Of a DNA stretch of 64,000 nucleotides, positions 17,524 to 45,321 are shown one piece after another (position 1 is the first letter of the stretch; every line of letters begins with the position of its first letter). Source of the DNA: Paraburkholderia sp. BL10I2N1 (GTDB lineage: Bacteria; Pseudomonadota; Gammaproteobacteria; Burkholderiales; Burkholderiaceae). The DNA lies in NCBI RefSeq assembly GCF_004361815.1, contig NZ_SNWA01000003.1:1-64000 (forward strand). The letters run 5' to 3'. The translations under genes and the position numbers were made by a program. The notes under the pieces are model-generated. The model was not told the DNA's origin. It searched no databases and saw only the letters and a program-made list of their open reading frames with translations.

Positions 17524-17751
17524 GTCGCCGGCGGCCGCCCACCGGCCGATAGTGGCGCAGGAACCGGCTCCGGGCCGTCATCGCCCGGGGCGCCGCCTGC
17601 GTTACCAGTCTATCCGGTGCTTCTCATCGGTCTCCGTAGACCGCAATAAATCTGTCAACACCCGGGTGTAGATGCGGCGCGGCAAAGCGTGAGCGCGGTG
17701 ACACTTTTATATACCGTTGGATGAGAGTGAACCAAACCGTGGGAGGTCAGT

Positions 17752-19212: not shown

Positions 19213-19349
19213 AGCAACTCCAATCGGTTGGCAACGTCGCCAGCGTAGCTGAAACGGCAAGCGTGCCGCGCGCGGGCTCGCTGAGCTCTTTTCTCCGGAA
19301 CTTCAGATTCCAGGCGCCACATCCGATCCGGTGCGACGCCGTCACGCCG

Positions 19350-20477: not shown

Positions 20478-20843
20478 AGCAACTCCAATCGGTTGGCAAC
20501 GTCGCCAGCGTAGCTGAAACGGCAAGCGTGCCGCGCGCGGGCTCGCTGAGCTCTTTTCTCCGGAACTTCAGATTCCAGGCGCCACATCCGATCCGGTGCG
20601 ACGCCGTCACGCCGTCACGCCGTCGATGACATTGGTCAAGTCGACGGAAATTGCCTCCCACGGTTTGGTTCACTCTCATTGACAGCAACACGCCAGCGTC
20701 ATCGTGCCGGATAAGGAGTGTTCCAGTCGGACGGACTATCGCGGGAAGACGACGGAAGTGAGCAGCCTGCGACGCCAGAATCGCCGATCGCGGGGAAGAC
20801 CTCGCTAGAATAGTCGAATTGTTACAGTACTTTTTCAGACAAC

Positions 20844-27543: not shown

Positions 27544-28187
27544 GGCGTTGTCACGTTCGCAGAGTCGTCGGCTAATATGGCGTGATGCAAAAGACGAAAT
27601 CGCTCCACCACGGTCATCGATTCCCGGCGTCGATCATGTTCGTGTCGCTGAGCGGTGATCCCTGGCTGCTGTGGCGCGCGGTCGACCAGCACGGCATTGA
27701 ACTCGACATCCTGCTACAGAAGTGGTGCGACAAGGCTGCGGCCACACGCTTCTTCAAACGCGTGCTGGGCCGGCTGCCCGGAAGTGCCGAAGAAGATCGT
27801 CACCGACCAGTTGCGCAGTTACACGGCCGCGAAAGCGGAAATCCCGGAACTGGCGAACGTAAAGCACGTGTTCGTCAAGGCCCGTGCCCGCGTCAACAAC
27901 CGTGCGGAAAACAGCCACCAGCCAACACGTGAACGCGAAAGGCGCATGCGCGGCTTTCGTTTGCCCGAACGCACGCAATCCTTCCTGTCGTGCTTCGGTC
28001 CGATATCCGGAAACACTTCGCACTCAAACGTCATCTGCTGCGCGCCTCGCTCCATCGCGAGCAACTCGCCGCACGATTTGAAGCGTGGCGCCTTTTCACC
28101 GGCATATCCCAAGGTCCGTCCACTACGTTCTGAGCGGAGGATACGCCTGCCGATGTTTCGTCACGTCATCAGCAATGTGACAGCGCC
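27544..28187 (+). mobile_element. IS6-family element remnant
   Basis: A remnant bounded by imperfect inverted repeats (GGCGTTGTCACGTTCGC at 27544-27560 and AGCAATGTGACAGCGCC at 28171-28187, about 13 of 17 matching). Inside is a broken IS6-type transposase with an internal deletion and frameshifts. Its right end abuts an IS66 fragment. About 120 bp of the same left end recurs inverted near 55648-55767. Confidence 0.7.
27585..28133 (+). pseudogene. IS6-family transposase, deleted and frameshifted
   Basis: The reading starts MQKTKSLHHGHRFPAS, then jumps directly to GDPWLLWRAVDQHGIELDIL, so the N-terminal DNA-binding region is deleted. A frameshift near 27785 moves homology to KKIVTDQLRSYTAAKAEIPE and NNRAENSHQPTRERERRMRG. 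Another shift near 28010 leads to FALKRHLLRASLHREQLAAR. It cannot make an active transposase. Confidence 0.75.
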
Positions 28188-28336
28188 ATTGTCGCTCGTC
28201 GCACCGAACAGCTTGCTGCGCAAGGCGCTTTACTATCTTAGCGGCCAGTGGCCGAAGCTCGTCCGATATCTTGAAAATGGACTCTGGTCGATCAGTAACA
28301 ACCGCTGCGAAAGTTCAATCCGCACATTTGTAGTGA
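28188..28336 (+). pseudogene. IS66 transposase (TnpC) C-terminal fragment
   Basis: About 50 codons of the IS66 TnpC C-terminal region: SLLRKALYYLSGQWPKLVRY, then ISNNRCESSIRTFVV. It is cut on the left by the IS6-type remnant and on the right by the 3' end of the LysR gene, whose final codons lie in this fragment on the other strand. Confidence 0.7.
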
Positions 28337-29229
28337 AAGTTTTCCATCAAGTCGATCACGAATACTTGCAAGATAGTAGGAGGCACAGCGGCCCGCCGAA
28401 TGATTGCGCAAAATGGCCACCTGGAGCCGAACTGGTCTGGGCCTATCTGATACATCTCACCGCGTGCGACCCAGCGGGCCGCGTAGTGAATCGGCAGAAA
28501 TCCGATGTACGCTCCCGACAGGATAAGGATAGCCTGCGCCTCGATATTGTCGACAGTTGCCGCAGCCTTACTTGCTTTGAGCATTCGCAGGTCATGCTGT
28601 TGCAGATATCCGCGCGCCACCACACGGCTAGACGCCACGCCCTCGTCGAGCGAGCCTTCGTCAGCCGATCGGCCAGCGAGCGGGTGATTCTTTCCGCAAT
28701 ATAGACCATCCGGTTCGTCGTAGAGCTCTGTATAGGTCAGCCCCGGCACATGGAGCGGAAAGTGCCCGACTGCGATGTGCAGCCGGCCATCCAGTACTCG
28801 TTCTTCCAGTTCGGCGGGCGTGCCGATATAGACGTCCAGATGCACATCGTGCCCCCTCGACACGAAATCCTGCAGCGTCTGCGGCAGCGGCGAGGCCGCA
28901 TCGGTCACGGTGTTGTCGATGATGCCGAGGTACAGCTTCCCCGAAATCTGCTTCTTGAGCGCGCCGGTATCCGCGCAAAAGCTTTCTACCGCGACCTGCA
29001 ACCGCTGCGCCGCCTCATAAGTCGCCATGCCGTGCTCGGTAAGGCGAAAGCCACTGCGTCCTCGTTCGCAAAGCTTCAGGCCCAAGCGCGTTTCCAGCGT
29101 CGTCATTTGCTCGCTGATCGTCGACTGGCTTACGTTCAAGGTTGCCTGCGCGGCGGAAAATCCGCCGCACCGCACAACCGTCATGAAGACCCTCAGCAGT
29201 TTGAGGTCCACGTCCTGCAACTGGATCAC
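28315..29229 (-). CDS. LysR-type transcriptional regulator, C-terminus replaced by IS66 sequence
   Basis: A 304-aa LysR regulator. The N-terminal winged HTH (about residues 6-65) contains FSAAQATLNVSQSTISEQMT and the linker LGLKLCERGRSGFRLTEHG. The C-terminal periplasmic-binding-like domain ends at about 298. The last residues (HYKCAD) are read from the antisense of an IS66 fragment, so the natural C-terminus, perhaps 10-15 aa, has been lost. It is divergent from the aldehyde dehydrogenase operon and probably regulates it; a likely operator lies at 29256-29316. It is closely related in layout to the LysR at 44112-45041. Function with the altered tail is uncertain. Confidence 0.85.
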   Translation of the reverse strand: MIQLQDVDLKLLRVFMTVVRCGGFSAAQATLNVSQSTISEQMTTLETRLGLKLCERGRSGFRLTEHGMATYEAAQRLQVAVESFCADTGALKKQISGKLYLGIIDNTVTDAASPLPQTLQDFVSRGHDVHLDVYIGTPAELEERVLDGRLHIAVGHFPLHVPGLTYTELYDEPDGLYCGKNHPLAGRSADEGSLDEGVASSRVVARGYLQQHDLRMLKASKAAATVDNIEAQAILILSGAYIGFLPIHYAARWVARGEMYQIGPDQFGSRWPFCAIIRRAAVPPTILQVFVIDLMENFHYKCAD

Positions 29230-29255
29230 CGTCGTCGCTCCTATTGCGCAGCTTG

Positions 29256-29316
29256 CTTCGATATTTCCGATATGAACATCTGATGCACGTGATTTTTACC
29301 CGTGAGCACCTGGTCC
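29256..29316 (+). promoter_or_regulatory. Shared operator/promoter block 1 (aldehyde dehydrogenase operon)
   Basis: In the LysR-aldehyde dehydrogenase intergenic region: CTTCG, then ATTTCCGATAT, then TTTTTACCCGTGA at the same distance as in the block at 45060-45120. It is probably a LysR binding region overlapping the promoter. Its block positions line up with those at 34555 and 45060, apart from a one-base offset in the CCGA element. Confidence 0.45.
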
Positions 29317-29433
29317 ATATTCTCTCAAAACGCCGTGCTGTCACAAGCCGCGTTTGTATCGATGGAATCTGGAACACGTACAAAACCGGCCCGCGAGAGG
29401 CCAAATGCCAGGCAATCTGCAAGACAGGAGACA

Positions 29434-30945
29434 ATGATGGATGCAGTCGTACAAAACTACCTTGAGAAGTTTGGCGTCCGCGAAGAGACGCAACGCTTCC
29501 TCACCAAGCCGAAGAAGATGTTTATCGGCGGTGCCTGGGTGCCGCAAGGCGACAGGCAATCGTGTGCGGTGATCGAGCCGTCCACCACGGGCGTGATCAC
29601 CGATATTCCCATGGCCACCACCGCCGATCTGGATCGCGCGGTCGAAGCGGCCCGCAGGCAATTCGACGGCGGACCGTGGCGCAAGCTCAAGCCCCTCGAG
29701 CGCGAACGTCTGTTGCACCGGCTCGCCGATCTGCTCGAATGGAACGCGACGGAGTTGGCCGAGATCGAATCGATCGACGTCGGCAAGTCCGTCGCCCAGG
29801 CGCGTGACGTCGACATTCAAGGCACGATCGACACGTTCCGCTATTTCGCCGGTTGGGCGTCAAAGCTCCATGGCCGCACGGTTGAAACCTCGTTGCCTGG
29901 TGACTACGTTGCCTATACTCGCAAGGAGCCCATCGGCGTGGTCGGCGTGATCGTTCCGTGGAATTTCCCTCTGCAAACCATGGCATGGAAAGTAGCCGCC
30001 GCGCTCGCCGTCGGTTGCACTGTCGTGATCAAGCCGGCCGAACTGACGTCGCTGTCAACGCTTCGCTTCGTGGAGTTGGTGCAGGAGGCAGGGATTCCGG
30101 ATGGCGTCGTCAATGTTCTGACCGGTCGCGGCCGTGAAATAGGTGCGGCCATGGCTTCGCATCCGGGCATCGACAAGATCACGTTTACGGGTTCCACCGA
30201 GGTGGGGCGCACTGTAGGGCACACCGCAGTGGGTGGCATCAAACGTCTCACACTCGAACTGGGCGGCAAGTCGCCCGTGCTGGTCCTGGAGGACGCTGAC
30301 ATTGAATCGGCAGCGCAGGCAGTGGCAAACGGCATTTTCTTCAACGCGGGACAGGTCTGCGATGCGGGTGCACGGGTCTATGTCCAGCGCAGGATTCACG
30401 ACAAGTTTATCGGCGCGCTGATCGAGTACACGCGCACCCTCAAGATCGCGCCCGGCCTCGATCGGGATTGCTTCATCAGCCCACTCGTTTCCGCGCTTCA
30501 GAGGGATCGCGTCGCGTCCTATATCGAGGACGGACGCCGCGAAGGAGCGGAAGTTGTTTATGGCGGTCACGCGCTTGACCGGGCAGGGTATTTCGTCGAG
30601 CCGACGATCTTTACGCATTGCCGCAGCGACATGAAGATAGTCCGTGAAGAAATCTTTGGCCCGGTGCTGGTGACAGCGCCATTTGACAACGTAGACGACG
30701 CGTTGTCGCTGGCGAACGACTCCCGGTATGGTCTTGCCGCAGCGATCTACTCCAATGACCTGAACCTGGTGAACAGATTGATCCCGCAATTGCGCGCCGG
30801 CATGGTGTACGTCAATGCGCACAGCACCATCGACCCCTCGATGCCGTTTGGCGGGTTCAAGGAGTCCGGCTTTGGCAAGGACCTCGGCCCGGAGCAGCTC
30901 GATCACCTGATGGAGAGCAAGGCCGTCTGGATCACGCTGCGCTGA
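29434..30945 (+). CDS. NAD(P)-dependent aldehyde dehydrogenase
   Basis: A 503-aa ALDH-superfamily enzyme oxidising an aldehyde to its acid. The Rossmann region has VIVPWNFPLQTMAWKVAAAL and GCTVVIKPAELT. FTGSTEVGRTVG, the catalytic Glu in LELGGKSPVLVLEDAD and the catalytic Cys in NAGQVCDAG are all present. The length is standard. I chose the ATG at 29434 (AGGAG upstream); the ATG three bases later is equally possible. It is the first gene of a probable operon with an NCS1 permease and a GMC oxidoreductase. It resembles betaine-/aminoaldehyde-type dehydrogenases, so an amino- or guanidino-aldehyde is a reasonable guess, not a finding. Confidence 0.9.
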   Translation: MMDAVVQNYLEKFGVREETQRFLTKPKKMFIGGAWVPQGDRQSCAVIEPSTTGVITDIPMATTADLDRAVEAARRQFDGGPWRKLKPLERERLLHRLADLLEWNATELAEIESIDVGKSVAQARDVDIQGTIDTFRYFAGWASKLHGRTVETSLPGDYVAYTRKEPIGVVGVIVPWNFPLQTMAWKVAAALAVGCTVVIKPAELTSLSTLRFVELVQEAGIPDGVVNVLTGRGREIGAAMASHPGIDKITFTGSTEVGRTVGHTAVGGIKRLTLELGGKSPVLVLEDADIESAAQAVANGIFFNAGQVCDAGARVYVQRRIHDKFIGALIEYTRTLKIAPGLDRDCFISPLVSALQRDRVASYIEDGRREGAEVVYGGHALDRAGYFVEPTIFTHCRSDMKIVREEIFGPVLVTAPFDNVDDALSLANDSRYGLAAAIYSNDLNLVNRLIPQLRAGMVYVNAHSTIDPSMPFGGFKESGFGKDLGPEQLDHLMESKAVWITLR

Positions 30946-31078
30946 ACGACGCCAATACGTCCGACGACGCCCGCAGGCGAACGTGAGCCTGTGGCCGCGT
31001 GACGGGCGAGCGTTGCAGCCAGAAAGCGTGCCGGGTCAAGCCTTATCCCATTCACCTCTCATTGCAGGCAAGGGGTAC

Positions 31079-32605
31079 ATGATGCAAGCAACAGACGAAT
31101 CGGTTAGCAGCACCGAAGCGGCGATCGAGCATGGGGCTATTGAAGGTCACTCGATCGACTTCATTCCGGATAACGAACGAACCGACAGGTTGTCGAGGCA
31201 AGGACCGTTCTGGTTTCTGGGCAATTTCACCTTCTTTACCATGACCATCGGCTTTGTCGGTCCCAGCATCGGCCTGAATGCGCTGTGGACGACGATAGCC
31301 GGCACGCTGGGCATCATGTTCGGCACCCTGTTCATGGCATTTCATGGATCGCAAGGCCCGCATCTCGGCTTGCCGCAGATGATTCAGTCGAGAGCTCAGT
31401 TCGGCTATCGCGGGGTCATCGTGGTGTTGATGGCGACACTTTTCGTGTTTGCCGGTTTCAACATCGTCAACCTGGTGCTGATGATGCAGGGTCTCAAGGA
31501 ACTGTTCAACTGGGACCCGGTGAAAGTCGCACTGGCTGTGACCGTGCCCGCTTCGATTCTGGCGATTCTCGGCCATGACTGGATGCACCGCAGCTTCAAA
31601 TGGGCGCTATATCTGTCGCTTCCCCTGTATGGGCTCGTTACGCTCGCCGTCCTGATGCACTGGGTGCCCGACATTGCAGCCGCCCCCGCTGCACCGGGCG
31701 CCGCACCGGTCGCGCCGCTCGGCTTCAACTGGGTGGCTTTCATCGCGCAATTTGCAGCGGCGGCCAGCTACAACATTGCCTACGCACCGTATGTTTCCGA
31801 TTACTCGCGCTACCTGCCGAAAAATACGCCGAGCGGCAGGCTGATCGCGGCGGTGTTCCTCGGCGCGTCGTTGTCAGGGGCGTGGATGATCGCGATTGGG
31901 GGCTGGCTGGCGGACCATTTGCATGCGAGCGATGTGCTGGTCGCACTGAATCAGGTGGGTAACGACCTGATGCCCGGTATGGGAAGCGCGGTGGTGGGCG
32001 TCACGATTCTCGCCTTCCTGCCGGTCATCGCGATGAATGTCTATAGCGCGAAACTGACGGCCATCACCGGTGTCGACTCGTTCCGGAAAGTTCAGCCGAC
32101 CGCGAAGGCCCGCATTCTGGCGATTCTCTTCGTGGTCATTCTTCAGCTTGGGGTGGCCCTCAGCATCTATACGTCGGGTAAAGGCCTCTCCGTGCTGAAT
32201 ATTTACCTCATCGTCATGCTGTATTTCCTGGTGCCCTGGACCGCGGTCAATCTGACGGATTACTTCTTTGTCCGCAAAGGCCGTTACGCAATTCCGCACT
32301 TCTTTCTGCCGCACAACAACCTTTACGGGACATGGGGCGCACGCGGTTTGATCGCTTACGCAATCGGCTTTGTCGCGATGATTCCGTTCTTCTGCGTATT
32401 CGACGGTTCGAACGAGGTGTACGTCGGTCCGCTGGCTCGGGCGATGGGCAGCGTCGATCTGGCCTGGCTGGTTGGCCTGTTCGTCTCGGGCTTCGCGTAT
32501 TACGTCTTGGCCCGCTCAATCGATCTGAAGCACGAAGGATCGGTCATCGCTCACATCGAGAAAGTCTCACCGCAATTCACGACTGGCGACAAGGGTCGCT
32601 CGTGA
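31079..32605 (+). CDS. NCS1-family permease (purine/cytosine/hydantoin type)
   Basis: A 508-aa membrane transporter with about 12 hydrophobic segments and the NCS1 features [20 protein letters not shown] and [20 protein letters not shown]1 members carry nucleobases, hydantoins, allantoin, thiamine or related cyclic amides. I chose the ATG at 31079 with AAGGGG upstream; the next ATG is adjacent. The position between the aldehyde dehydrogenase and the GMC oxidoreductase suggests it imports the substrate of those enzymes. The soluble N-terminus ([20 protein letters not shown]) is normal for the family. Confidence 0.88.
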
Positions 32606-32648
32606 GACACGGGCAAGCGTATCAAGCTTAGGAAATAAGGCATATATC

Positions 32649-34340
32649 ATGGTTATCGAGCAATTCGATTACATCATTGTGGGTGCCGGATCGGCCGGCT
32701 GTGTATTGGCCAACCGACTCACCGAGAACCCCGCGGTACGTGTTCTGGTACTGGAGTACGGTGGCAGCGATCGCAGCGTCATCATTCAGATGCCGAGTGC
32801 GTTTTCGATGCCGATGAATACGACCAAGTACAACTGGCGTTATCAGACCGCGCCGGAGCGCCATCTGAATGGCCGCCAGTTGCACTGCCCGCGTGGCAAG
32901 GTTCTGGGAGGTTCCTCTTCGATCAACGGTCTCGTCTATATTCGCGGCCACGCCTACGACTTCGACGAGTGGGAGGAACTGGGCGCTCGAGGCTGGGGAT
33001 ATCGCAATTGCCTGCCTTACTTCCGGCGTGCGGAGACCTACAAGTTCGGCGGCGACGAGTACCGCGGCGCCGAGGGGCCGCTGTGCACCAATAACGGTAA
33101 TAACATGGCGAATCCGCTGTACGGCGCATGGGTCGAGGCAGGCGCGCAGGCCGGATACATCAAGACGGAGGATTGCAACGGGCATATGCAGGAAGGCTTC
33201 GGCGCGATGCACATGACGGTCAAGAACGGCGTGCGCTGGTCCACCGCTAATGCGTACCTGCGCCCTGCCATGAAGCGCCCGAATCTGACCGTGGTGACCA
33301 ATGCCATGACGCGTCACGTGATTCTCGAAGGCAAGCGCGCGGTCGGGGTCGTCTATGAACAAGGCGGCGTCACGCACACGGTGCGGTGCCGTCGTGAAGT
33401 ATTGATCTCGTCCGGCCCGATCGGCTCGCCTCACCTGCTGCAGCGCTCCGGAATCGGCCCCGCCGACGTGCTGAAGCGGGCGGGAATCGACGTGAAGCAT
33501 GACTTGCCCGGCGTCGGCGAGAACCTGCAGGATCATGCTGAAATCTATATTCAGTACGCGTGTAAGGAGCCCGTCACGCTCAACGCGAAAATGGATCCGT
33601 TCAGCAAATTCATGATCGGCTTGCGCTGGCTGTTGTTCAAGGACGGCCTGGGCGCAAGCAACCACTTCGAGGCCGGCGGATTCATTCGCTCCGAAGTGGG
33701 CCTGCGTTGGCCGGATATTCAATTCCATTTCCTGCCCGCAGCCATGCGTTATGACGGTGACAAGCCGTTCAAGGGGCATGGGTTCATGGTGCTGACCGGG
33801 CCGAACAAGCCAAAGAGCCGCGGTTACGTACGGGCGGTGTCGGCCGATCCGCACACGCACCCGGAGATTCGCTTCAACTACCTGGATCGCGAAGAGGACA
33901 GGGAAGAATTTCGACGCTGTGTTCGCTTGACGCGAGAAATTATCGGCCAGCCGGCGATGGACCGCTTCCGCGATGTCGAACTCGCGCCTGGCCCTGACGT
34001 TCAGACGGACGAGCAAATCGATGCCTTCGTCAGAGCTAGTCTGGAAAGCACGATGCATCCTTGTGGTTCGTGTCGAATGGGCGAAGACGATATGGCGGTG
34101 GTCGATTCCGAACTGCGGGTTCGTGGGATCGAAGGCTTGCGCGTGATCGACTCATCGGTCTTCCCGACGGAGCCTAATGGCAACCTGAACGCACCGACCA
34201 TCATGCTGGCCGAGCGCGCATCCGACCTGGTGCGGGCGGTTCCCATGCTGCCCCCGTCGAACGCCGAGGTAGGCCTTGCTGAAGGATGGGAGACGCGGCA
34301 ACGCACCCGCGCACCGGCGCGAACGGTGCATCTCGGGTAG
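32649..34340 (+). CDS. GMC-family oxidoreductase (choline dehydrogenase-like)
   Basis: A 563-aa FAD flavoprotein that oxidises a primary alcohol. The FAD-binding motif [15 protein letters not shown] is at residues 10-24. The GMC signature [20 protein letters not shown] follows, then [16 protein letters not shown]. The C-terminal active site has HPCGSCRMG (catalytic His) and PNGNLNAPT (Asn partner). The length fits choline dehydrogenase and related enzymes. It ends the putative operon after the permease. Together with the aldehyde dehydrogenase it could convert an alcohol to an acid in two steps. The substrate is unknown; choline is possible, but the bet genes usually have other neighbours. 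Confidence 0.9.
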
Positions 34341-34554
34341 CGTGGCGGCCAGGGGTGAGGGTGGAGATTTCTTTCTTGCCCTTAGCGCTGGCAACTGCAT
34401 AAAGACCGCGCCGGGCCGCTACTCCACGGCGCCAGAGTGCGTGGATTGCCTCGACAGGATCCAATCAATGAATCCGCCAGCAACGTAGACGCCGTCGTGT
34501 TTTGGCGACGTTGCGCATACTGCCATGGCGCATCAGGGCGGCCCGCGCTTTTTG

Positions 34555-34615
34555 CTTCGGAGAATGCCGATGTGTATTTCTTGTTTTCGGCATTGTTCCG
34601 TTGAATTTGGCTGCC
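34555..34615 (+). promoter_or_regulatory. Shared operator/promoter block 2 (ureohydrolase)
   Basis: A 61-nt region that aligns without gaps to 45060-45120, with about 41 identical positions by my count. It begins CTTCG and ends TGAATTTGGCTGCC. It lies 114 nt before the ureohydrolase start. A -10-like TAGACT follows directly. Confidence 0.5.
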
Positions 34616-34729
34616 TAGACTCTCTTTAGATAACCCTGCTGCTCCTGATGACGCGCATGGCTGCAGTGGCGAAGATGCGGCGCGTTTTCGCGTCGCGCGT
34701 ATCTCAACCGATAAAAGAACGGAGGCAAC

Positions 34730-35707
34730 ATGTCTGGAAACAACTACGACACAGGCCGGCTCAATCTGCCGTTTGTGGGTATCTGCACGTTCGCCAAATC
34801 CCCGCTGTGTCTCGACTGGGACAAGATCGACGGCAACGTGGCGGTGATGGGCGCGCCGTTCGATTGCGGCACGCAGTGGCGCGCTGGCGCACGCTTCGGT
34901 CCGCGTTCGATTCGTGACGCGTCGACCCTGTTCTCGTTCGGCCATGGCGGCGCCTACGACTTCGAAGACGACGTCGTCTATCTGCCCAGCGACGAAGTGC
35001 GCATCGTCGACATCGGCGACGCGGACATGGTGCACACCAACACGGAAAAGAGCCATGCCAACATCGAGTACGGCGTGCGCAAGATCCTCGCAGCCGGCGC
35101 GCTGCCGGTGGTGATGGGCGGCGACCATTCGATCAACATTCCGTGCATCAACGCATTCGAAGGTCAGGAGCCGTTTCACATCGTCCACATCGATGCGCAT
35201 CTGGATTTCGTCGATGAACGGCACGGCGTGCGCCACGGTCACGGCAATCCTTTGCGGCGCGCCGCGGAAAAGAGCGTGGTGTCGGGTATGACGCAGATCG
35301 GCATCCGCAATGTATCTTCGACGGCGCGCGAGGGCTACGCGCAGGCGCGCGAGATGGGCTCGGACATCATCTCCGTGCGCGATTTGCGCCGCCTCGGCAT
35401 CCAGGGCGTGCTGGATCGCATTCCGAAGGGCGTGCGCTACTACCTGACGATCGACATCGACGGCTTCGATCCGTCGATTGCGCCGGGCACTGGCACGCCG
35501 AGCCACGGCGGCCTGCTGTACTACGAAGGACTCGAGCTGTTCGCAGGGCTCGCGGCGCAGGGCGACGTGATCGGCATCGACCTCGTGGAAGTCGCACCCG
35601 ACTACGACCATTCCGGCTCGACGTCGATCCTTGCCGCGCAACTGCTGCTGAACACAATCGGCCGTGTGATGCACCAGCGCAAGGTCAAAAGGGCGCAGGC
35701 GCGCTGA
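34730..35707 (+). CDS. Ureohydrolase (agmatinase/guanidino-acid hydrolase family)
   Basis: A 325-aa binuclear Mn enzyme that hydrolyses a guanidino group to an amine and urea. The metal ligands are all present: His133 in VMGGDHSINIP, Asp155/His157/Asp159 in HIDAHLDFVDE, and Asp242/Asp244 in LTIDIDGFDPS. The ATG at 34730 has CGGAGG upstream. The usual name would be agmatinase, but the loop after DAHLD (RHGVRHGHGNPLRRA) is of the kind seen in guanidinobutyrase, guanidinopropionase and similar enzymes. No putrescine-using gene is nearby, while a glycine-cleavage cluster is directly downstream. Guanidinoacetate (giving glycine plus urea) is therefore an attractive but untested substrate. Confidence 0.85.
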   Translation: MSGNNYDTGRLNLPFVGICTFAKSPLCLDWDKIDGNVAVMGAPFDCGTQWRAGARFGPRSIRDASTLFSFGHGGAYDFEDDVVYLPSDEVRIVDIGDADMVHTNTEKSHANIEYGVRKILAAGALPVVMGGDHSINIPCINAFEGQEPFHIVHIDAHLDFVDERHGVRHGHGNPLRRAAEKSVVSGMTQIGIRNVSSTAREGYAQAREMGSDIISVRDLRRLGIQGVLDRIPKGVRYYLTIDIDGFDPSIAPGTGTPSHGGLLYYEGLELFAGLAAQGDVIGIDLVEVAPDYDHSGSTSILAAQLLLNTIGRVMHQRKVKRAQAR

Positions 35708-35980
35708 AGCTGGCTCGCCGGATTCGGCGCGCATACCTGCGTCCGCTTTCCGGCGACTGATGCCCCATCAAATCTGCCTGGTTGTCTGGCCCGCGAGATG
35801 CTGGCCAGTCTGACCGTTCGACCGGTCACATTCAAATCTGGTTTTTATTCCGATCAGCCCGCTTCGACCCGGCATACCGTGACACAGGACGATTTGCCTG
35901 CTGTGGCTGAAGCATCGAACTGACAATTGACGATGCAGCACGCATTCGAATCGGGCCCCTACAGGATGGAGTCAACACTC

Positions 35981-36355
35981 ATGAGCAATCTGCGATTCAC
36001 TGAAGACCACGAATGGCTGCGTCTGGACGACGACGGCCGCGCAACCGTCGGCATTACGACGTTTGCACAGGAACAACTGGGCGACCTCGTCTTCGTCGAC
36101 TTGCCGGCGCCGGGTAAGTCCCTGAAAGGCGGTGAAGAAGCGGCCGTGATCGAGTCGGTCAAGGCCGCGGGTGAAATCAAAATGCCAGTCGCAGGCGTCA
36201 TTGTCGAGATCAACGAGGCGCTGCGGGACGAACCGTCGAAGGCCAACGAAGATCCGCAAGGCAGCGGCTGGTTCTTCAGGATCGAACTTGCCGATCCCGC
36301 TGCGTTCGATTTGCTGATGGACGAATCCGCCTATGTCGCCTTCACCGGCGCCTAA
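35981..36355 (+). CDS. gcvH: Glycine cleavage system H protein
   Basis: A 124-aa lipoyl carrier that shuttles the aminomethyl group between GcvP, GcvT and the lipoamide dehydrogenase. The lipoyl lysine is K61 in VIESVKAAGEIKMP. The ATG at 35981 matches the usual start (MSNLRFTEDHEW); upstream in-frame codons add an unlike N-terminus. It is the first gene of gcvH-gcvP-glyA-sdaA-gcvT. I looked for a glycine riboswitch in the 270-nt leader and did not find its conserved blocks. Confidence 0.95.
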   Translation: MSNLRFTEDHEWLRLDDDGRATVGITTFAQEQLGDLVFVDLPAPGKSLKGGEEAAVIESVKAAGEIKMPVAGVIVEINEALRDEPSKANEDPQGSGWFFRIELADPAAFDLLMDESAYVAFTGA

Positions 36356-36382
36356 TCCCCGATCCCACAGGAACACGTGATC

Positions 36383-39289
36383 ATGAGCGACGTTGGAACG
36401 CCATTGGCACAACTGCAGAACCACGCTGAATTCGTCGGCCGTCACATTGGACCAACGACCGGCGAGCAGGCGCAGATGCTGGCACAGATCGGCTTCGATT
36501 CGATCGATGAATTTATCGCGAGCGTGGTGCCCCCGCACATCGCTGAACACGCACCGCTCGCGTTGCCCGACGCGCGCACGGAAGTCGACGCGCTGAAGGC
36601 GTTGAAAGCACTGGCGGCGAAAAACCGTCGCTTCAGAAGCCATATCGGTACGGGGTACTACGACACTCATACGCCGAACGTGATCCTGCGCAACCTGCTG
36701 GAGAACCCCGCCTGGTACACGGCCTACACGCCGTACCAGCCGGAGATCTCGCAGGGCCGCCTGGAAGCGCTGCTCAATTTCCAGACAATGATCACCGATC
36801 TGACCAGGATGGAAATCGCCAACGCGTCGCTGCTCGACGAGGCCACCGCCTGTGCCGAAGCGATGACATTCTGTCAGCGCCTTTCGAAGAGTGGGTCGAA
36901 CACGTTTGTGGTCTCGACGGATTGTCATCCGCAGACGATCGACGTGATCCGCACACGCGCGGAGCCGCTCGGCATCGAGGTGGTCGTGGGCGATGCGGCA
37001 CAGTTATGCCGTAACTCGAAGTACTTTGGCGTGCTGTTGCAGTACCCCGCCACGCAAGGCGACATCCTCGACTACGCGGGCTGCATCGCCAACGCGCACG
37101 AGCGGGGTGCGCTCGCGGTGGTATCGGCGGATCTGCTGGCCCTGACACTGTTGAAGCCGCCTGGCGAGTTCGGCGCGGACGTCGTGGTGGGAACCGCGCA
37201 GCGCTTCGGCGTGCCGCTGGGTTTCGGCGGTCCTCATGCCGCGTTCTTCGCGACGAAGGAAGCATTCAAGCGCGACATGCCGGGACGGCTCGTCGGCGTA
37301 TCGGTCGATCGCAGCGGCAAGCCCGCGCTGCGTCTGGCGATGCAGACGCGCGAGCAGCATATCCGCCGCGAGAAGGCGACTAGCAATATCTGCACGGCCC
37401 AGGTGCTGCTCGCGATCATCGCCGGCATGTACGCCGCGTATCACGGTCCGGCCGGCCTCGTGCGGATCGCGGAGCGCGTGCATCGTCTGACGGCGGTGTT
37501 TGCCGCGGGTGTCGGGAAGTTCGGCTTCACGGTTCAGCAACAGACTTTTTTCGACACGGTGACGATTGTGACCGGCGCGCATACGCCCGCGATTCACGCA
37601 GCGGCGCGGCAGCACGCAATCAATCTGCGGGTGATCGATGACGCAAGCATCGGCGTCGCCTTCGACGAAACGACCACGGCGCAGGACGTCGAGACCCTAT
37701 GGTCGGTGTTCGCCATGACCGGCACGCCGCCGGGCTTCGATGCGGTCGAACCGTACGTGTTCCGCGCGATTCCGAAGGCGCTCCTACGTAGCTCGCCGTT
37801 CCTCGAACACCCGACCTTCAACCGTTACCACTCCGAGACTGAGATGATGCGCTACCTGCGCCGCCTCTCCGACAAGGATCTGGCGCTTGATCGCACGATG
37901 ATTCCGCTTGGCTCGTGCACGATGAAGCTCAATGCCGCTGCTGAGATGATTCCCGTGACATGGCCGGAGTTCGGCGGCCTGCATCCGTTTGCGCCGGAGG
38001 ATCAGACAGAAGGTTATCGCGTGATGATCGAACAGCTCGAGCAGATGCTGTGCGTCATCACCGGCTATGACGCCGTATCGTTGCAACCGAACGCTGGCTC
38101 GCAGGGCGAGTACGCGGGGCTGCTGGCGATCCGTGGCTATCACGCAAGCCGGGGCGAAGGGCATCGCAATGTGTGCCTGATACCGAGTTCGGCGCACGGC
38201 ACCAATCCGGCAACGGCACAGATGGCAGGGATGGAAGTCGTGGTCGTAGCGTGCGACCGCAACGGCAACGTCGACGTGGCGGATTTGCGCCAGAAAGCGG
38301 AAGCGCACAGCGCGCAGATCGCCGCGCTGATGATCACGTACCCGTCGACGCACGGCGTGTTCGAAGAGGCGATTCGCGACCTCTGCGACGTTGTGCATCG
38401 CCATGGCGGTCAGGTGTATATCGACGGCGCGAACATGAACGCGATGGTCGGCCTGTGCAAGCCGGGTCAGTTCGGGGGCGACGTGTCGCATCTGAATCTG
38501 CACAAGACGTTCTGCATTCCGCATGGCGGCGGCGGCCCCGGCGTCGGGCCAATCGGCGTCAAGACGCATCTCGCCCCGTTCCTGCCGGGACATTCGGCAC
38601 TGCCTAGCCGACGGGCCGGCGCTGTCGCGGCGGCGCCGTGGGGAAGCGCCAGCATTCTGCCGATCACGTGGATGTACATCACGATGATGGGCGCCGCGGG
38701 ACTCAGACAGGCTTCGCAGGTGGCGATGCTCAATGCCAACTACATCGCCAACCGGCTCGCGCCGCACTATCCGATTCTCTACGCGGGCAAGCACGGCTTC
38801 GTCGCGCACGAGTGCATTGTCGACATGCGTCCATTGAAGGAGAAGAGCGGCATCACGGTCGACGATTTGGCCAAGCGCCTGATCGACTATGGCTTTCACG
38901 CGCCCACGATGTCGTTCCCGGTGGCCGGCACCTTGATGATCGAGCCAACAGAGAGCGAATCGAAGCAGGAACTGGATCGTTTCTGTGACGCGATGATCGC
39001 GATCCGCGAGGAAATCCGCGCCGTGGAGCTGGGTCAAGGTGACGTGCGCAATAACCCGCTGACCAATGCGCCGCATACCGCACAGGATCTCGCCGCTGAA
39101 TGGGTGCGACCGTATTCGCGGGAACAGGCCGTGTTCCCGCTCGCGAGCAGCGTCGAAAGCAAATACTGGCCACCGGTGGGCCGGGTCGACAACGTTTACG
39201 GCGACCGCAATCTTGTGTGCTCGTGCCCGCCGCTATCCGACTATGCCGAACCCCATCCAGACGAAGTCGAGACGGCGCGTGCCGCCTGA
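36383..39289 (+). CDS. gcvP: Glycine dehydrogenase (decarboxylating), P protein
   Basis: A PLP enzyme of 968 aa (single-chain type) that decarboxylates glycine and passes the aminomethyl group to GcvH. The N-terminal half has [20 protein letters not shown] and [17 protein letters not shown]. The C-terminal half has the PLP lysine in [18 protein letters not shown] near residue 707. I chose the ATG at 36383; a GTG at 36377 is two codons earlier. It starts 27 nt after gcvH, so the genes are co-transcribed. The frame and length are intact. Confidence 0.95.
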
Positions 39290-39314
39290 CAGTACTAGTA
39301 AACAGGAGACAGCC

Positions 39315-40595
39315 ATGGTCAACACCAGCATGTCCATCGAAGGTTTCGATCCGCAATTGTGGCGCGCGATCGAGGGCGAGCAGCTTCGCCAGGAAGATCA
39401 CATCGAGCTGATCGCGTCGGAGAACTACACCAGTCCCCGCGTGCTCGAGGCACAGGGTTCGGTCCTCACAAACAAGTACGCGGAAGGTTATCCGGGCAAG
39501 CGCTACTACGGCGGTTGCGAGTTCGTCGATGTCGCCGAGCAGCTCGCGATCGATCGCGCGAAGCAGCTGTTCGGGGCGGACTGGGCGAACGTGCAGCCGC
39601 ATTCGGGCTCACAGGCCAATGCCGCGGTGTATCTCGCGCTGGTGCAGCCGGGCGACACGATTCTTGGCATGAGCCTTGCGCACGGTGGCCACCTGACGCA
39701 TGGCGCGAAGGTAAGCTTTTCCGGGAAACTCTACAACGCGGTGCAGTATGGCATCGACGAAGAGGGTTTGATCGACTATGACGAAGTCGAGCGGCTCACG
39801 CTCGAGCACAAACCGAAGATGATTGTCGCCGGCTTCTCCGCCTATTCGCGACGCCTCGACTTCGAGCGCTTTCGCGCGATTGCTTACAAGGTGGATGCCT
39901 ATCTGTTTGTCGATATGGCGCACGTCGCAGGGCTGGTGGCGGCGGGTATCTATCCGAATCCGCTGCCATACGCGGACATCGTGACGACCACTACCCACAA
40001 GACGCTGCGTGGGCCGCGCGGCGGCCTGATCATGGGCCGCGCGAATCCGGAGATCGAGAAGAAGATTGCGTCGATGGTGTTCCCCGGCACCCAGGGTGGC
40101 CCGTTGATGCATGTGATCGCCGCGAAGGCCGTCGCGCTGCTCGAGGCGCTGCAGCCGGAGTTCAAACGCTATCAGCAACAGGTCGTCAGCAACGCCCGGG
40201 CGATGGCGCAGGTCTTCGAGCAGCGCGGTTACCACGTCGTGTCGGGCGGCACGGACAACCACCTGTTCCTCGTCAGCCTGATTGCGAAGGGGCTGACCGG
40301 CAAGGCGGCCGACGCCGCACTCGGCGCCGCCCATATCACGGTGAACAAGAACGCGGTGCCCAACGATCCGCAATCGCCGTTCGTGACGAGCGGCATTCGT
40401 ATCGGGTCGCCGGCGATCACGACGAGGGGCCTGAAAGAGCAGGAGTCCCAGCAACTCGCGAGCTGGATCTGCGACGTGCTCGACAACATCGACAATCCGC
40501 AGGTGATCGCCGAGGTTCGGGAGAAAGTACAGGCGCTGTGCGCGCGGTTCCCCGTCTACGCGGCTGTTTCCGCACACTCTGAAGCGACGGGCTGA
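39315..40595 (+). CDS. glyA: Serine hydroxymethyltransferase
   Basis: A 426-aa PLP enzyme that interconverts glycine plus methylene-THF with serine plus THF. The PLP lysine is in [14 protein letters not shown] near residue 229; [18 protein letters not shown] and [15 protein letters not shown] are family blocks. The ATG at 39315 follows AGGAG. Its place in the gcv cluster, directly before sdaA, shows that the one-carbon unit and glycine are routed to serine. It is probably a second, catabolic copy beside a housekeeping glyA. Confidence 0.95.
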
Positions 40596-40598
40596 GCC

Positions 40599-41975
40599 AT
40601 GGCACTGAGCGTCTTCGATCTGTTCAAGATCGGCATCGGCCCGTCGAGTTCGCATACGGTTGGGCCGATGCGCGCGGCTGTGCAGTTCGCGGCCGGCTTG
40701 CGCGAGCACGGCCTGCTGCAGGCGACGGAGACGGTGAAAATCGAGCTGTACGGCTCACTGGGCGCGACCGGCAAAGGGCATGGCAGCGACAAGGCCGTGC
40801 TGCTCGGCCTCGAAGGCTCCGAGCCCGACACCGTCGACGTGGATTCGATCGACGCGCGCCTCGCCGTGATTCGTGCGGAGCAGCGCCTGAACCTGCTTGG
40901 GCAAAAGACGATTGTCTTTGTCGAGAAGCAGCATCTGGTTTTCAATCGCCGCGAACTGGCCTTTCATCCGAACGGTCTGCGTTTCATCGCATTCGACGCG
41001 AGTGGCGTTGAACTGCGGAGCAAGGTGTATTTCTCGGTGGGCGGCGGCTTCGTGGTCGACGAGGACGCAGCCGGTGTCGACCGTATCGTCGCCGATGCGA
41101 CGCCGCAGGCGTTTGTGTTCAGATCAGGCAAGGAACTGCTGATGCGCTGCGTGGACAATGGCCTCTCCGTCAGTCAGTTGATGATGGCCAACGAGCGCGC
41201 GTGGCGAACCGAGACCGAAATCCGGGCGCAGCTCCTCGCGATCTGGGAAGTGATGCAGGCATGCGTCGCGCGCGGTTGTGCTACCGAAGGCACGATGCCT
41301 GGTCCGCTCAAGGTAAAACGCCGCGCGGCCGCCTTGCACCGGAACCTGTCGTCGACTCCGGAGGCGAGCTTGCGGGACAACCTGTCGGTGCTCGACTGGG
41401 TCAATCTCTACGCGCTCGCCGTTAATGAAGAGAATGCGAGCGGCGGCCGGGTCGTCACCGCGCCGACCAACGGTGCGGCAGGCATCGTCCCCGCGGTGTT
41501 GCATTACTACGCGCGCTTCGTGCCCGGCGCGAACGACGATGGGATCGTGAGGTTTTTGCTGACCGCCGGAGCCATCGGTATTCTCTATAAGGAGAACGCA
41601 TCGATCTCCGGCGCCGAGGTGGGTTGCCAGGGAGAGGTCGGCGTGGCCTGCTCAATGGCTGCGGGCGCGCTTGCCGAGGTGCTGGGCGGTACCCCGTCGC
41701 AGGTCGAGAACGCGGCGGAGATCGGCATGGAGCACAACCTGGGACTCACCTGCGATCCGGTCGGTGGGCTCGTCCAGGTGCCGTGCATCGAGCGCAATGC
41801 GATGGGATCGGTCAAGGCCATCAACGCGGCACGCATGGCGCTGCGCGGCGATGGCCAGCATTTCGTGTCGCTGGACCAGGTGATCAAGACGATGCGCGAG
41901 ACCGGCGCGGACATGAAGACGAAATACAAAGAGACGGCGCGCGGCGGGCTCGCGGTCAATGTTATCGAATGCTGA
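40599..41975 (+). CDS. sdaA: L-serine ammonia-lyase (iron-sulfur type)
   Basis: A 458-aa enzyme that deaminates serine to pyruvate. The N-terminal beta domain has [16 protein letters not shown] (residues 12-27). The C-terminal alpha domain has [20 protein letters not shown] and the conserved cysteines that bind a [4Fe-4S] cluster (in [18 protein letters not shown] and [20 protein letters not shown]). It begins 3 nt after the glyA stop. It completes a route glycine to serine to pyruvate within the cluster. Confidence 0.95.
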
Positions 41976-42022
41976 AATACGCTGGGCGATGGCCCGCGTT
42001 CAGCACACTGCTGGAGAAGAAA

Positions 42023-43150
42023 ATGGCAACCGGAATCGCTACGGCACCGATGCTGCAAACACCGCTGTATAACCTGCATCTCGAACTCGGCGCGAAGATG
42101 GTGCCCTTTGCCGGCTACGACATGCCGGTGCAGTATCCGATGGGCGTCCTGAAAGAGCATCTGCATACCCGCGCGCAAGCGGGGCTGTTCGATGTGTCGC
42201 ACATGGGGCAGATGCGCGTCACAGGCGCCAATGCCGCAGCGGATTTCGAGGAACTCGTGCCGGTGGACATCATCGGTCTGCAGCCGGGACGCCAGCGCTA
42301 CGCACTCTTCACGAACCACAACGGCGGGATTCTGGACGATCTGATGGTGGCCAACGCAGGCGACCATCTTTTTGTGGTCGTCAACGCTGCCTGCAAGGGA
42401 CAGGACTTTGCATGGATGTCCGAGAAACTCGGCAACTGCAAGGTCGAATCGCTCGGTGACCGCGCGCTGCTTGCGTTGCAGGGACCGGAAGCTGCGGCAG
42501 TGCTTTCCCGGTACGCGCCCGCGGTCGCGCGGATGAGCTTCATGTCGGTCGGCACGTTCGATCTGGCCGGCGTGAGCTGCACGGTGAGCCGCTCGGGCTA
42601 CACCGGCGAAGATGGATTCGAGATTTCCGTCCCGGCCGTGCATGCGGAACCGCTCGCGCGCGAGTTGCTGAAAGAGGCTGCTGTCGCGCCCATCGGTCTG
42701 GGTGCTCGCGATTCGCTGCGTCTTGAAGCAGGGCTGTGCCTGTATGGACACGATATGGATAAGTCAACGACCCCGGTCGAGGCGAGTCTCGTCTGGGCGA
42801 TGTCGAAGGTGCGGCGGCCCGGCGGCGAGCGGGCAGGCGGGTTTCCGGGTTATCCCATGATCGCGGCGCACCTGAAAGTCGGCGCGCCGAAGAAGCGCGT
42901 TGGGCTGGTGCCGGTCTCGGGTGTGCCGGTTCGCGAAGGCGCGGTGCTGCGCGATGGCGACGCATGTGTGATCGGCAAGGTGACGAGTGGCGGTTATGGT
43001 CCGACGTACAAAGGACCGGTCGCGATGGGTTATGTCGAAGCAGCACTGTCTGAGCCCGGTACGCGGCTCTTTGCCGACGTGCGCGGCAAGGCAGTTGAAG
43101 TCGCGGTGATGCCCACGCCGTTTGTTGCACAACGCTACTATCGCGGCTGA
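42023..43150 (+). CDS. gcvT: Aminomethyltransferase, T protein
   Basis: A 375-aa THF-dependent enzyme that releases ammonia and methylene-THF from aminomethylated GcvH. Family blocks are [47 protein letters not shown] and [20 protein letters not shown]. The ATG at 42023 has GGAGA upstream and lies 47 nt after sdaA. The glycine cleavage set here lacks only the L protein (lipoamide dehydrogenase), which is usually shared with other complexes. Confidence 0.95.
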
Positions 43151-43162
43151 CCGGAGTACGCC

Positions 43163-44097
43163 ATGTCGACGACCAACTCCTCCGCCACCCGTCACGCCAC
43201 GGGCGTCAAGCTGCGCGGTGCCGACAAGCTCGCGCGCATCCCTGTCAAAATCGAGCCGACGCAGCCCGGCCAGTACCTGCGCAAGCCCGAATGGCTGCGC
43301 ATTCCCCTGGGCCAGGCCGCCGAGGTAAACCGCTTGCGCCAGGTTTTGCGGGACAACCATCTGCACACGGTTTGCGAGGAGGCGAACTGTCCGAACCTCG
43401 GCGAATGCTTCAGCAGCGGCACGGCGACGTTCATGATCATGGGCGATATCTGTACGCGCCGTTGCCCATTCTGCGACGTAGGTCACGGCCGGCCCAATCC
43501 GCTCGACGCGAACGAACCGGAGAATCTCGCGCGGACGATTGCCGCGATGAAGCTGCGCTATGCGGTCATTACGGCGCGGGACATTTCGTGCAATGCATCG
43601 AAGCGACGCGGCGCATGACCCCGGGCATCGGCATCGAAATCCTCACGCCCGACTTTCGGGGCAGGAAACAGCTTGCGCTGGATACACTGGCCACGGCGCC
43701 GCCCGATGTCTTCAACCACAATCTGGAAACGGCGCCTCGTTTGTACCGGCAGGCGCGACCTGGTGCCAACTACGCGCATTCACTGCAACTGCTGCGCGAT
43801 TTCAAGGCGCGGCACCCGGATGTCACCACCAAGTCAGGCCTGATGCTGGGTCTGGGCGAGGAAACGGCGGAAGTCGAGGCGGTGATGCGCGACATGCGCG
43901 AGCACGATGTGGATGCGCTGACGCTGGGTCAGTACCTGCAACCCAGTGCGCACCATTTGCCCCTGCAGCGTTACGTGTCGCCCGAAGAGTTCGATCGGCT
44001 GCGTGAAGTCGGGCTTGCGATGGGGTTCCGCCACGTCGCTTCGGGGCCGCTGGTGCGCTCTTCGTACCATGCCGAGGAGCAACTGGCCAGCCGCTGA
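43163..44097 (+). pseudogene. lipA: Lipoyl synthase, internal deletion with frameshift
   Basis: A radical-SAM lipoyl synthase that would insert sulfur into octanoyl-GcvH or E2. The first cluster cysteines ([12 protein letters not shown]) and the SAM motif [10 protein letters not shown] are present, and the frame ends KLRYAVIT. The homologous remainder resumes in another frame as [20 protein letters not shown]. Known LipA proteins have SVDRDDLRDG between these points; by comparison about 31 nt are missing, which removes these ten residues and breaks the frame. The rest up to the stop at 44097 is well conserved, so the loss is recent. Lipoylation of GcvH must rely on another lipA. It would have been the last gene of the gcv operon, 12 nt after gcvT. 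Confidence 0.85.
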
Positions 44098-44111
44098 ACG
44101 CTACCTTCGCG

Positions 44112-45041
44112 TCATTTCTTGCGCGATCCTCGCTTCACGCCGCGGACTTCGTCTGCGGCTTCGAGCAGATGCTCGTGAAAGGACTGCACCACGCGGGCGA
44201 ACTCTTTGCCTTTGCGCGTAATGATGCGGAAATCCAGGTGCGTAACGTAGTGATCCGGGTCGACACGGTGCAGCAGGCCAGTATTGACCCAAGGCTGCGC
44301 ATAGTGCGGCGGCAAAAAGCCGATGTAGTTGCCCGAGAGGATCAACATGGCGCGGCCTTCGACGTTATCTACCGTGGCCGCCGCCTGGGTCATGCGCAGC
44401 AGCTTGAGTTCCTGAGCGCCGAGGTAAGCGCGTGCGGCCAGCCGGTACGTGCTTAACGTCGCAACCGGTATACGCTCGCCTGCGCGTTCATACAGCGGAT
44501 GGGTCGACGAGCAATAGAGTCCCTGCTCCTCGCGATAGAGCGGCGTGTAGTCCAGGCCTGGAATCTGGGCGGGAAACGGACCGACGGCCAGATGGAGCCG
44601 CCCATCCAGCACGTGCTGTTCCATGTTGCCCGGTGTCTCGATCTGGACATGCAGACGGACGTCCGGCGCCGCCTGCCCGAAATTGCGGATCGCAACCTGC
44701 AACGGCGAATGAGTGTCCGTCAGCGTTGCCTCGATCATCCCGAAGCGCAACACGCCCTGAAGCTGGTTGCGCAATGCACCGGCTTCCATGTGAAAGGTGT
44801 CGACAGCGCCGAGCAGCCGTTCCGCGGCGGCGTGCAACTGCGCACCGTCTTCAGTCAGACGGAAACCGCCACGCCCGCGCTCGCACAGACGCAGGCCAAG
44901 CCGCGTTTCGAGTTGCGCCATGTATTCGCTGATGCTCGATGCACTGAGGTTCAGGATCGGCTGGGCGGCAGCGAAACCGCCGCATTGCAGGATGGTCTCG
45001 AACATGCGCAGCAGCCTGAGATCGGTGTCCTGAATCTGCAT
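44112..45041 (-). CDS. LysR-type transcriptional regulator
   Basis: A 309-aa LysR regulator, related in sequence to the one at 28315-29229 (both have CGGFAAAQ/CGGFSAAQ, a LCERGRGGFRLTE-type linker, and DGRLHLAVGPFP/DGRLHIAVGHFP). The HTH spans about residues 6-65 and the effector domain follows. It has an intact basic C-terminus (VRGVKRGSRKK). It is divergent from the substrate-binding-protein gene at 45322, with a likely operator at 45060-45120. The ligand is unknown but may be the same class of compound as for its paralogue. Confidence 0.9.
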   Translation of the reverse strand: MQIQDTDLRLLRMFETILQCGGFAAAQPILNLSASSISEYMAQLETRLGLRLCERGRGGFRLTEDGAQLHAAAERLLGAVDTFHMEAGALRNQLQGVLRFGMIEATLTDTHSPLQVAIRNFGQAAPDVRLHVQIETPGNMEQHVLDGRLHLAVGPFPAQIPGLDYTPLYREEQGLYCSSTHPLYERAGERIPVATLSTYRLAARAYLGAQELKLLRMTQAAATVDNVEGRAMLILSGNYIGFLPPHYAQPWVNTGLLHRVDPDHYVTHLDFRIITRKGKEFARVVQSFHEHLLEAADEVRGVKRGSRKK

Positions 45042-45059
45042 CTCGCCCCCCTCTGATTA

Positions 45060-45120
45060 CTTCGCAAATTTCCGAAATACATTCTATTAATTAGCCATTT
45101 TACCTGTGAATTTGGCTGCC
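45060..45120 (+). promoter_or_regulatory. Shared operator/promoter block 3 (binding-protein gene)
   Basis: The divergent LysR/binding-protein region. It runs CTTCG, ATTTCCGAAAT, TTTTACCTGTGA, then GAATTTGGCTGCC. It aligns ungapped with 34555-34615 and shares its first and central blocks with 29256-29316. A -10-like CAGAAT follows at 45121. Confidence 0.5.
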
Positions 45121-45321
45121 CAGAATGAATTTCTCCGGCGTCCAGATAAGTGGCTCGACGGTTGATGGGTGGCCTCGCGCGATGGTTTAGGTTCTAGCGG
45201 ATTCGGCAGGGAAACCGAATAGTGCGGCACGCCCCGATTTCTATGTTGTGAGCGCACCAGACCCGCACGCAAGCGCGGCAAGGTGCCGGACACGTGAATG
45301 TGACAGAGCGAGGAGAAGACG

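Follow-up and report, generated by a model that had tools for sequence, protein, structure and literature searches.

Does a protein that would ordinarily be called an agmatinase supply the glycine that is degraded by the genes following it? The question is raised by the beginning of contig 3 (NZ_SNWA01000003.1) of Paraburkholderia sp. BL10I2N1, a genome of 9.2 Mb in four contigs, of which the first 64,000 bases (hereafter the window) were studied. Between 28.3 and 44.1 kb the + strand carries genes for an aldehyde dehydrogenase (ALDH), an NCS1-type permease, a GMC flavin alcohol dehydrogenase and a ureohydrolase, then gcvH, gcvP, glyA, sdaA, gcvT and a broken lipA; a minus-strand LysR gene flanks the group on each side. 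An earlier reading made from the letters alone (the sequence-only reading) had claimed this gene content and order, and all the genes were found in place on one strand; no internal stops occur from ALDH through gcvT and all nine of these genes exceed their Pfam cut-offs, while NCBIfam cut-offs were missed by NCS1 (67 bits versus 353) and by ALDH among the 25 families listed. The ureohydrolase is, in our judgement, likely to be tied functionally to glycine catabolism: it may release glycine, most simply from guanidinoacetate, to which we give a slightly better than even chance of being the substrate. The genes concerned are as follows.

28315-29229, - strand: LysR1, LysR-type regulator divergent from ALDH (Pfam HTH_1 and LysR_substrate)
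29434-30945, + strand: ALDH (PF00171, 581 bits; TIGR01804 betaine aldehyde dehydrogenase, 508 bits, below the cut-off of 669)
~31079-32605, + strand: NCS1-type permease (PF02133, 119 bits; under the NCBIfam ncs1 cut-off)
32649-34340, + strand: GMC flavin alcohol dehydrogenase, choline-dehydrogenase-like (TIGR01810, 759 bits, cut-off 732)
34730-35707, + strand: ureohydrolase, candidate guanidinoacetate hydrolase; no member of its clade is known to have been characterised (PF00491, 271 bits)
~35981-36355, + strand: gcvH (PF01597, TIGR00527)
36383-39289, + strand: gcvP, the genome's second copy (TIGR00461, 1504 bits)
~39315-40595, + strand: glyA (PF00464, 578 bits)
40599-41975, + strand: sdaA (TIGR00720, 729 bits)
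~42023-43150, + strand: gcvT (PRK13579, 540 bits)
43163-44097, + strand: broken lipA copy (two open reading frames in different frames, each matching part of lipoyl synthase or radical SAM models)
44112-45041, - strand: LysR2, LysR-type regulator (Pfam)

The ureohydrolase has all six metal ligands (H133, D155, H157, D159, D242 and D244) as well as the catalytic H171 and E287. It shares ≥75% identity with at least 120 protein clusters, and agmatinase was the name wherever one was given. The sequence-only reading regarded such an annotation as misleading, and we agree that the label is open to question: two further ureohydrolases were found in the genome, both encoded elsewhere, one of the guanidinobutyrase type and the other a SpeB-type agmatinase that scores higher. 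Against the agmatinase model PRK02190 (cut-off 302) the window protein scored 200 bits and the SpeB-type paralogue 465 (with 235 bits for the second agmatinase model, TIGR01230); the GbuA-type paralogue is 73% identical to 3nio. A tree was computed from 103 ureohydrolase sequences of fetched loci together with five solved ureohydrolases (GbuA, GpuA, proclavaminate amidinohydrolase, guanidinase and the agmatinase of D. radiodurans). One clade with support of 1.0 united the 97 sequences that are at least 60% identical, and the five solved enzymes, to which the window protein is 33-37% identical, fell outside. The genome's own GbuA-type paralogue (L002) grouped with GbuA (support 1.0); the window ureohydrolase did not. 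Clade records among the best 80 matches were mostly alpha- and betaproteobacterial, with some from the gammaproteobacterial Granulosicoccus and one entry labelled Oceanobacillus.

Compared with characterised enzymes, the window ureohydrolase has superfamily and metal ligands in common with GbuA and GpuA of Pseudomonas aeruginosa, but belongs to a separate clade (37% identity over 283 aligned positions to each), and R72 of GbuA, a carboxylate cap according to the available text of PMC9772407, is replaced by S69 in the STLFSFGH loop of the clade. The guanidinase GdmH, of the same superfamily, is 33% identical over 298 positions, and its W305, a tryptophan that the enzyme requires (available text of PMC11410670), corresponds to T256. 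The D. radiodurans agmatinase 1wog ranks first both in sequence (36% identity over 296 positions) and in predicted fold, although a long branch lies between the two. The predicted model shows a clear fold (mean predicted local distance difference test, pLDDT, 80; predicted template modelling score, pTM, 0.85), and the fold comparison ranked agmatinase first without separating substrates. Clade, paralogues and residues argue against the known substrates without proving guanidinoacetate.

Loci were fetched around relatives of the ureohydrolase or of the gcv genes (L-numbers) and genomes were searched (G-numbers, G000 being the window's own); genes in the relatives' loci were called by an open reading frame (ORF) picker scored on amino-acid composition, with a few genes misplaced. 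In Aminobacter anthyllidis (L128), where further DNA was fetched, the order is LysR-ureohydrolase-lipA-gcvT-gcvH-gcvP-glyA-sdaA in a single direction. Another genus of the window's family (L109, genome G223) has lipA-gcvT-glyA-gcvP-gcvH, with no sdaA match, divergent from LysR1-ureohydrolase-ALDH-NCS1-GMC. Sets of glyA-gcvT-gcvH-gcvP-sdaA lie ~6-11 kb from a ureohydrolase in A. ciceronei (L127) and in G525 (L163); that of A. ciceronei, at ~6.5 kb, also holds a pyridine-nucleotide-disulphide oxidoreductase of the lipoamide dehydrogenase kind between glyA and gcvT. Neisseriaceae JH1-16 has a block in the window's gene order, with lipA, ~18 kb from a ureohydrolase, Crenobacter has a same-order block on a contig other than that of the ureohydrolase locus, and in the further DNA fetched for Shinella granuli glyA alone of the glycine genes was seen.

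The ureohydrolase was detected in 16 of 299 genomes of the window's family (E ≤1e-120) and in 36 of 247 genomes of the family around A. anthyllidis. Of these 52 genomes, 47 have gcvP (E ≤1e-50) and four have two copies (G000, G223, G300 and G525); in all four, one copy is close to a ureohydrolase (0.7, 2.0, 2.6 or 15.2 kb), where a rough estimate for a random second copy lying within 16 kb is ~1% per genome. Window-type gcvP (>1500 bits) occurs in 2 of the 299 family genomes, the window's and G223, both ureohydrolase-positive; the probability of this by chance is 120/44551 = 0.003 or, with the window excluded, 15/298 = 0.05. That search scored at most two gcvP candidates per genome; nine genomes gave two matches, and among the matches listed two full copies were readable in G000 and G223. 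An order-wide search found the ureohydrolase at E ≤1e-120 in 3 of 399 genomes (the window's own and L019, Leeia, among them), and their loci, L164-L166, show no gcv genes. In the tree, the window ureohydrolase branches outside an 80-member group (support 1.0), that of L109 falls in a 9-member group (1.0), that of L128 in a 4-member group (0.97) and those of A. ciceronei and G525 in a 21-member group (0.99). These separate, supported branches suggest that ureohydrolase and glycine genes came together on more than one occasion. The recurrent nearness of these known enzyme types is real, and a new function for one ureohydrolase clade is probable.

The glycine half of the cluster is not new in kind, because its gene order is that of the gcs2 operon of P. 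aeruginosa (gcvH2-gcvP2-glyA2-sdaA-gcvT2), described in the available text of PMC4894688 as a glycine-to-pyruvate route; in the window the five genes are likewise contiguous and co-directional. According to the same text gcs2 is GcsR-controlled and glycine-responsive, whereas the window block follows the ureohydrolase and carries the broken lipA. The sequence-only reading, which knew of no described operon with this content, is thus corrected for gcvH-gcvP-glyA-sdaA-gcvT. In the literature searched, with most subscription journals outside it, we found neither a ureohydrolase joined to glycine cleavage genes nor a bacterial gene assigned to the hydrolysis of guanidinoacetate. The glycine genes of the window are additional to another gcv locus on contig 1 (gcvT, gcvH, gcvP and sdaA, preceded by two glycine riboswitch aptamers), whose gcvP is 66% identical to the window copy. 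A glycine riboswitch precedes gcvH in L109, L122 and L124, unlike in the window. L122 (12955-13567) and L124 (13719-14341) show, in addition, a second glycine riboswitch on the opposite strand, ~430-450 bases from the gcvH one. Relative to L109 and L122, where the lipA at the same place is open, part of the middle of the window lipA is missing; since this copy is broken, lipoylation of the H-protein would depend on a lipA elsewhere.

We propose that the cluster constitutes a peripheral catabolic route ending in glycine, which would then be burned to pyruvate. NCS1, GMC and ALDH would serve the uptake and oxidation of a small cationic alcohol, our guess being 2-guanidinoethanol because it resembles choline. 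The ureohydrolase would split guanidinoacetate into glycine and urea, the latter usable by the genome's urease, whose alpha subunit is encoded. By the established chemistry of their families, GcvH, GcvP and GcvT with a lipoamide dehydrogenase would cleave part of the glycine to CO2, ammonia and methylene-tetrahydrofolate, GlyA would combine the methylene-tetrahydrofolate with another glycine to give serine, and SdaA would deaminate the serine to pyruvate, releasing ammonia. The best fit is a substrate that yields glycine, guanidinoacetate being the simplest. This was the central idea of the sequence-only reading, and we regard it as the best among several explanations.

The reaction proposed is that of guanidinoacetase (glycocyaminase, Enzyme Commission number EC 3.5.3.2), for which we know of no gene. 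A 1969 report on a Penicillium enzyme is cited in the available text of PMC7439472, and no guanidinoacetase sequence was found in the literature searched. If the proposal is true, many proteins that carry the name agmatinase are wrongly annotated, a gene can be assigned to a long-known enzyme activity, and an environmental route leading from guanidino compounds into central carbon metabolism can be put to the test; bacterial breakdown of guanidinoacetate, which the literature searched describes as a human metabolite and feed additive, would also be of applied interest. We hold with considerable reserve, as something rather less probable than its contrary, the wider proposal that bacterial guanidinoacetate hydrolase is encoded by the genes of this clade and forms the common final step of a funnel whose entries can be exchanged, beside which several lineages independently placed a spare glycine-to-pyruvate set. 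These entries would be NCS1-GMC-ALDH from an alcohol such as 2-guanidinoethanol (for which annelid phosphagens such as lombricine are a possible source), ABC-SDR-SDR-deacetylase-type hydrolase, and a creatininase variant opening glycocyamidine.

A number of observations weigh against the guanidinoacetate route. The nearness of the ureohydrolase to extra glycine-catabolic genes recurs in several arrangements and clade branches, but the majority of the clade stands away from any glycine genes. The contig scan for ureohydrolase relatives covered the best 80 of at least 575 places, in 79 loci with up to 10 kb per side; at ≥45% identity it found glyA in three loci (L034, L044 and L060), sdaA in one, gcvT in one and gcvP in none, although the glycine genes at L044 and L060 run past the edge of the fetched DNA. 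Among 16 Burkholderiaceae loci, gcvP was seen in one. Since G000 and G300 (A. anthyllidis) entered the sample after their linkage was known, only G223 and G525 are unselected finds. No glycine riboswitch was detected at E ≤5 in window positions 28000-46000, hence none upstream of gcvH, and the LysR boxes described below match there with 5-6 mismatches at best, as in shuffled sequence. No guanidinoacetate-selecting residue was identified by residue comparison or in the predicted model, in which the pLDDT is <50 in the two loops that should discriminate between substrates. The GMC protein is narrowly above the cut-off of the choline dehydrogenase model TIGR01810; a stronger BetA candidate (909 bits) exists elsewhere in the genome. 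Finally, human AGMAT, named agmatinase, is according to the available text of PMC9772407 a guanidino-acid ureohydrolase that does not accept guanidinoacetate; by analogy, it shows that such misnaming has happened before and counsels care over the substrate.

Part of this evidence would suit hydrolysis of a longer guanidino compound (agmatine, guanidinobutyrate, guanidinopropionate or taurocyamine), with the glycine operon an unrelated neighbour: the agmatinase model TIGR01230 is narrowly passed by the window ureohydrolase (184 bits, cut-off 174), the D. radiodurans enzyme is the nearest solved structure by sequence and fold, and glycine genes are not near most clade members. We nevertheless find this improbable in view of the separate clade, the genome's own GbuA- and SpeB-type paralogues and the repeated nearness to extra gcvP copies.

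What surrounds the ureohydrolase upstream is variable. A GMC gene (≥65% identity) is found in the ureohydrolase flanks in 21 of the 79 loci and 8 of the 16 Burkholderiaceae loci, accompanied by an NCS1-type permease in 19/21 and 8/8, and ALDH in 14 and 9, respectively; the two sets overlap (L110, L113, L115 and L117 are L007, L015, L021 and L012). The position that ALDH has in other loci is taken in some alphaproteobacteria by SDR-SDR together with a deacetylase-type hydrolase, and in alphaproteobacteria relatives of the deacetylase-type hydrolase of the window lie near the ureohydrolase. These varied upstream genes look like a funnel with a common last step. In L036, two near-identical ureohydrolase genes stand ~4.5 kb apart, one in each kind of gene group, which suggests a recent duplication or gene conversion.

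In the window, related genes run on to ~55.6 kb (LysR2, an ABC binding protein, two APC-type permeases, SDR, IclR, an epimerase, and creatininase-family, lipocalin-like and polysaccharide-deacetylase-type proteins). Two of them are possible feeders.

52456-53235, + strand: creatininase-family amidohydrolase, possible ring-opening feeder (TIGR04448, 358 bits, cut-off 235)
54456-55577, + strand: polysaccharide-deacetylase-type hydrolase, weakly PuuE-allantoinase-like, possible feeder, start uncertain (TIGR03212, 90 bits, below the cut-off of 425)

The first aligns over residues 4-256 of 259 with the creatininase of Pseudomonas (1j2t, 1q3k), solved creatininases being matched at E 1e-90 or better. 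It is ~17 kb away from the ureohydrolase; creatininase-family genes are near same-type ureohydrolases in L018, L102 and L104, and in L028 one stands beside a 36% relative, with a 77% relative ~2 kb further. Because the reaction of the family yields a guanidino acid, this partner would be a second pointer to an alpha-guanidino acid, though no proof. Adjoining the creatininase-type gene in the window (53235-54026), and also in L018, L102 and L104, is a gene for a protein without a Pfam family; it has 121 homologues at E ≤1e-10, those named among the matches listed being hypothetical or uncharacterised, and its model (mean pLDDT 93) gave weak matches to lipocalin-like folds.

At L060 of A. ciceronei (16310-18503), one gene group includes a gene of the ureidoglycolate-lyase family together with those for a DUF2848 protein and a deacetylase-type hydrolase, which hints that the substrate is a ring compound. 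Such neighbours bear on the possibility that the ureohydrolase hydrolyses some other N-substituted glycine, most of all N-formimidoylglycine, giving glycine and formamide in a HutG-like reaction, with ring-opening hydrolases supplying the substrate from an imidazole or purine product. Formimidoylglutamase does belong among the ureohydrolases, and breakdown of a nitrogen ring would be suited by the NCS1 permease, the PuuE-like hydrolase, the BMP-type transporter gene of L036, L044 and L060 and the ureidoglycolate-lyase-family gene of L060; but the window ureohydrolase is nearer to agmatinase models than to hutG (131 bits, cut-off 229), and a creatininase-type partner would yield guanidino rather than formimino acids, so that we regard this substrate as unlikely.

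Whether the cluster acts as one unit was approached through its regulatory sequences. Gaps of ~390 bp upstream and ~270 bp downstream flank the ureohydrolase gene, and the following features are relevant.

29267-29284, + strand: putative LysR1-type box CCGATATGAANATCTGAT, sole window match at ≤3 mismatches
34602-34619, + strand: putative LysR2-type box before the ureohydrolase, identical to 45107-45124
45107-45124, + strand: putative LysR2-type box before the binding-protein gene, identical to 34602-34619
45322-46467, + strand: ABC amino-acid-type substrate-binding protein (PRK15404, 194 bits, below the cut-off of 477)

The 18-base LysR1-type box is to be read with the fact that 11 of 100 shuffled sequences also give one match at ≤3 mismatches; in L105, L106, L109 and L116 it recurs ahead of the ureohydrolase gene with no more than one mismatch. 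Relatives of LysR1 precede ureohydrolase-ALDH-NCS1-GMC in L103, L105-L109 and L116 (71-79% identity) and ALDH-NCS1 in L110 and L111 (86-90%). The LysR2-type box is exact at its two positions, with no further window match at ≤3 mismatches; upstream of the relatives' ureohydrolase it shows 2-4 mismatches in 7 of 14 loci and 5-7, the level of chance, in the other 7. LysR2 relatives (62-82%) adjoin window-type ureohydrolases, mostly together with a binding-protein gene, which is not present in L016 and L018. A simple scan found no sigma-70-like promoter or terminator in 34300-36400. A stretch behind the ureohydrolase folds hardly better than shuffled sequence (z -1.5; 16 of 200 shuffles fold as well). 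At least two LysR-type units are likely, and a single transcript across the cluster cannot be assumed, because gaps flank the ureohydrolase and the boxes before it and before ALDH differ. LysR1 would control ALDH-NCS1-GMC and LysR2 the ureohydrolase, to judge from the boxes; the glycine genes could be read through from the ureohydrolase or have a separate promoter, and may have been brought under the ureohydrolase promoter.

The differing boxes are what would be anticipated if two or three independent modules merely lay side by side: GMC, ALDH and NCS1 serving choline or some other alcohol, the ureohydrolase with a different role, and a mobile glycine operon of the gcs2 kind. The flanking transposase genes and the choline-dehydrogenase-like GMC protein point the same way, as do the Paraburkholderia/Caballeronia loci L006-L015, where ALDH-NCS1-GMC stands beside the ureohydrolase but behind its own LysR in 7 of 10 and is absent from 3. 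The repeated presence of GMC in the ureohydrolase flanks of the two partly overlapping sets of loci and the recurring nearness of gcv genes speak against independence, which we consider no more than a slim chance. The region from LysR1 to the deacetylase-type gene is bracketed by IS66/IS240-type transposase remnants (27655-28704) and an IS110-type transposase (55861-56997), as if it were a mobile catabolic island.

Wild-type creatininase chains have a tryptophan at the position changed to F in chain 3a6e, a residue with a presumed role in binding. A creatine-type route, in which the creatininase-family enzyme gives creatine and the ureohydrolase sarcosine, is very improbable even though the creatininase equivalog model TIGR04448 is passed, for this tryptophan is F, Y, Y, F and I in the homologues of the window, L018, L102, L104 and L028, respectively, and the window genes scanned, which were not all of them, included no recognisable gene for a creatinase or for sarcosine oxidation.

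Outside the cluster, an ORF without a Pfam family and the ORF adjacent to it on the minus strand (17752-20525) have a long N-terminal part that is identical in both.

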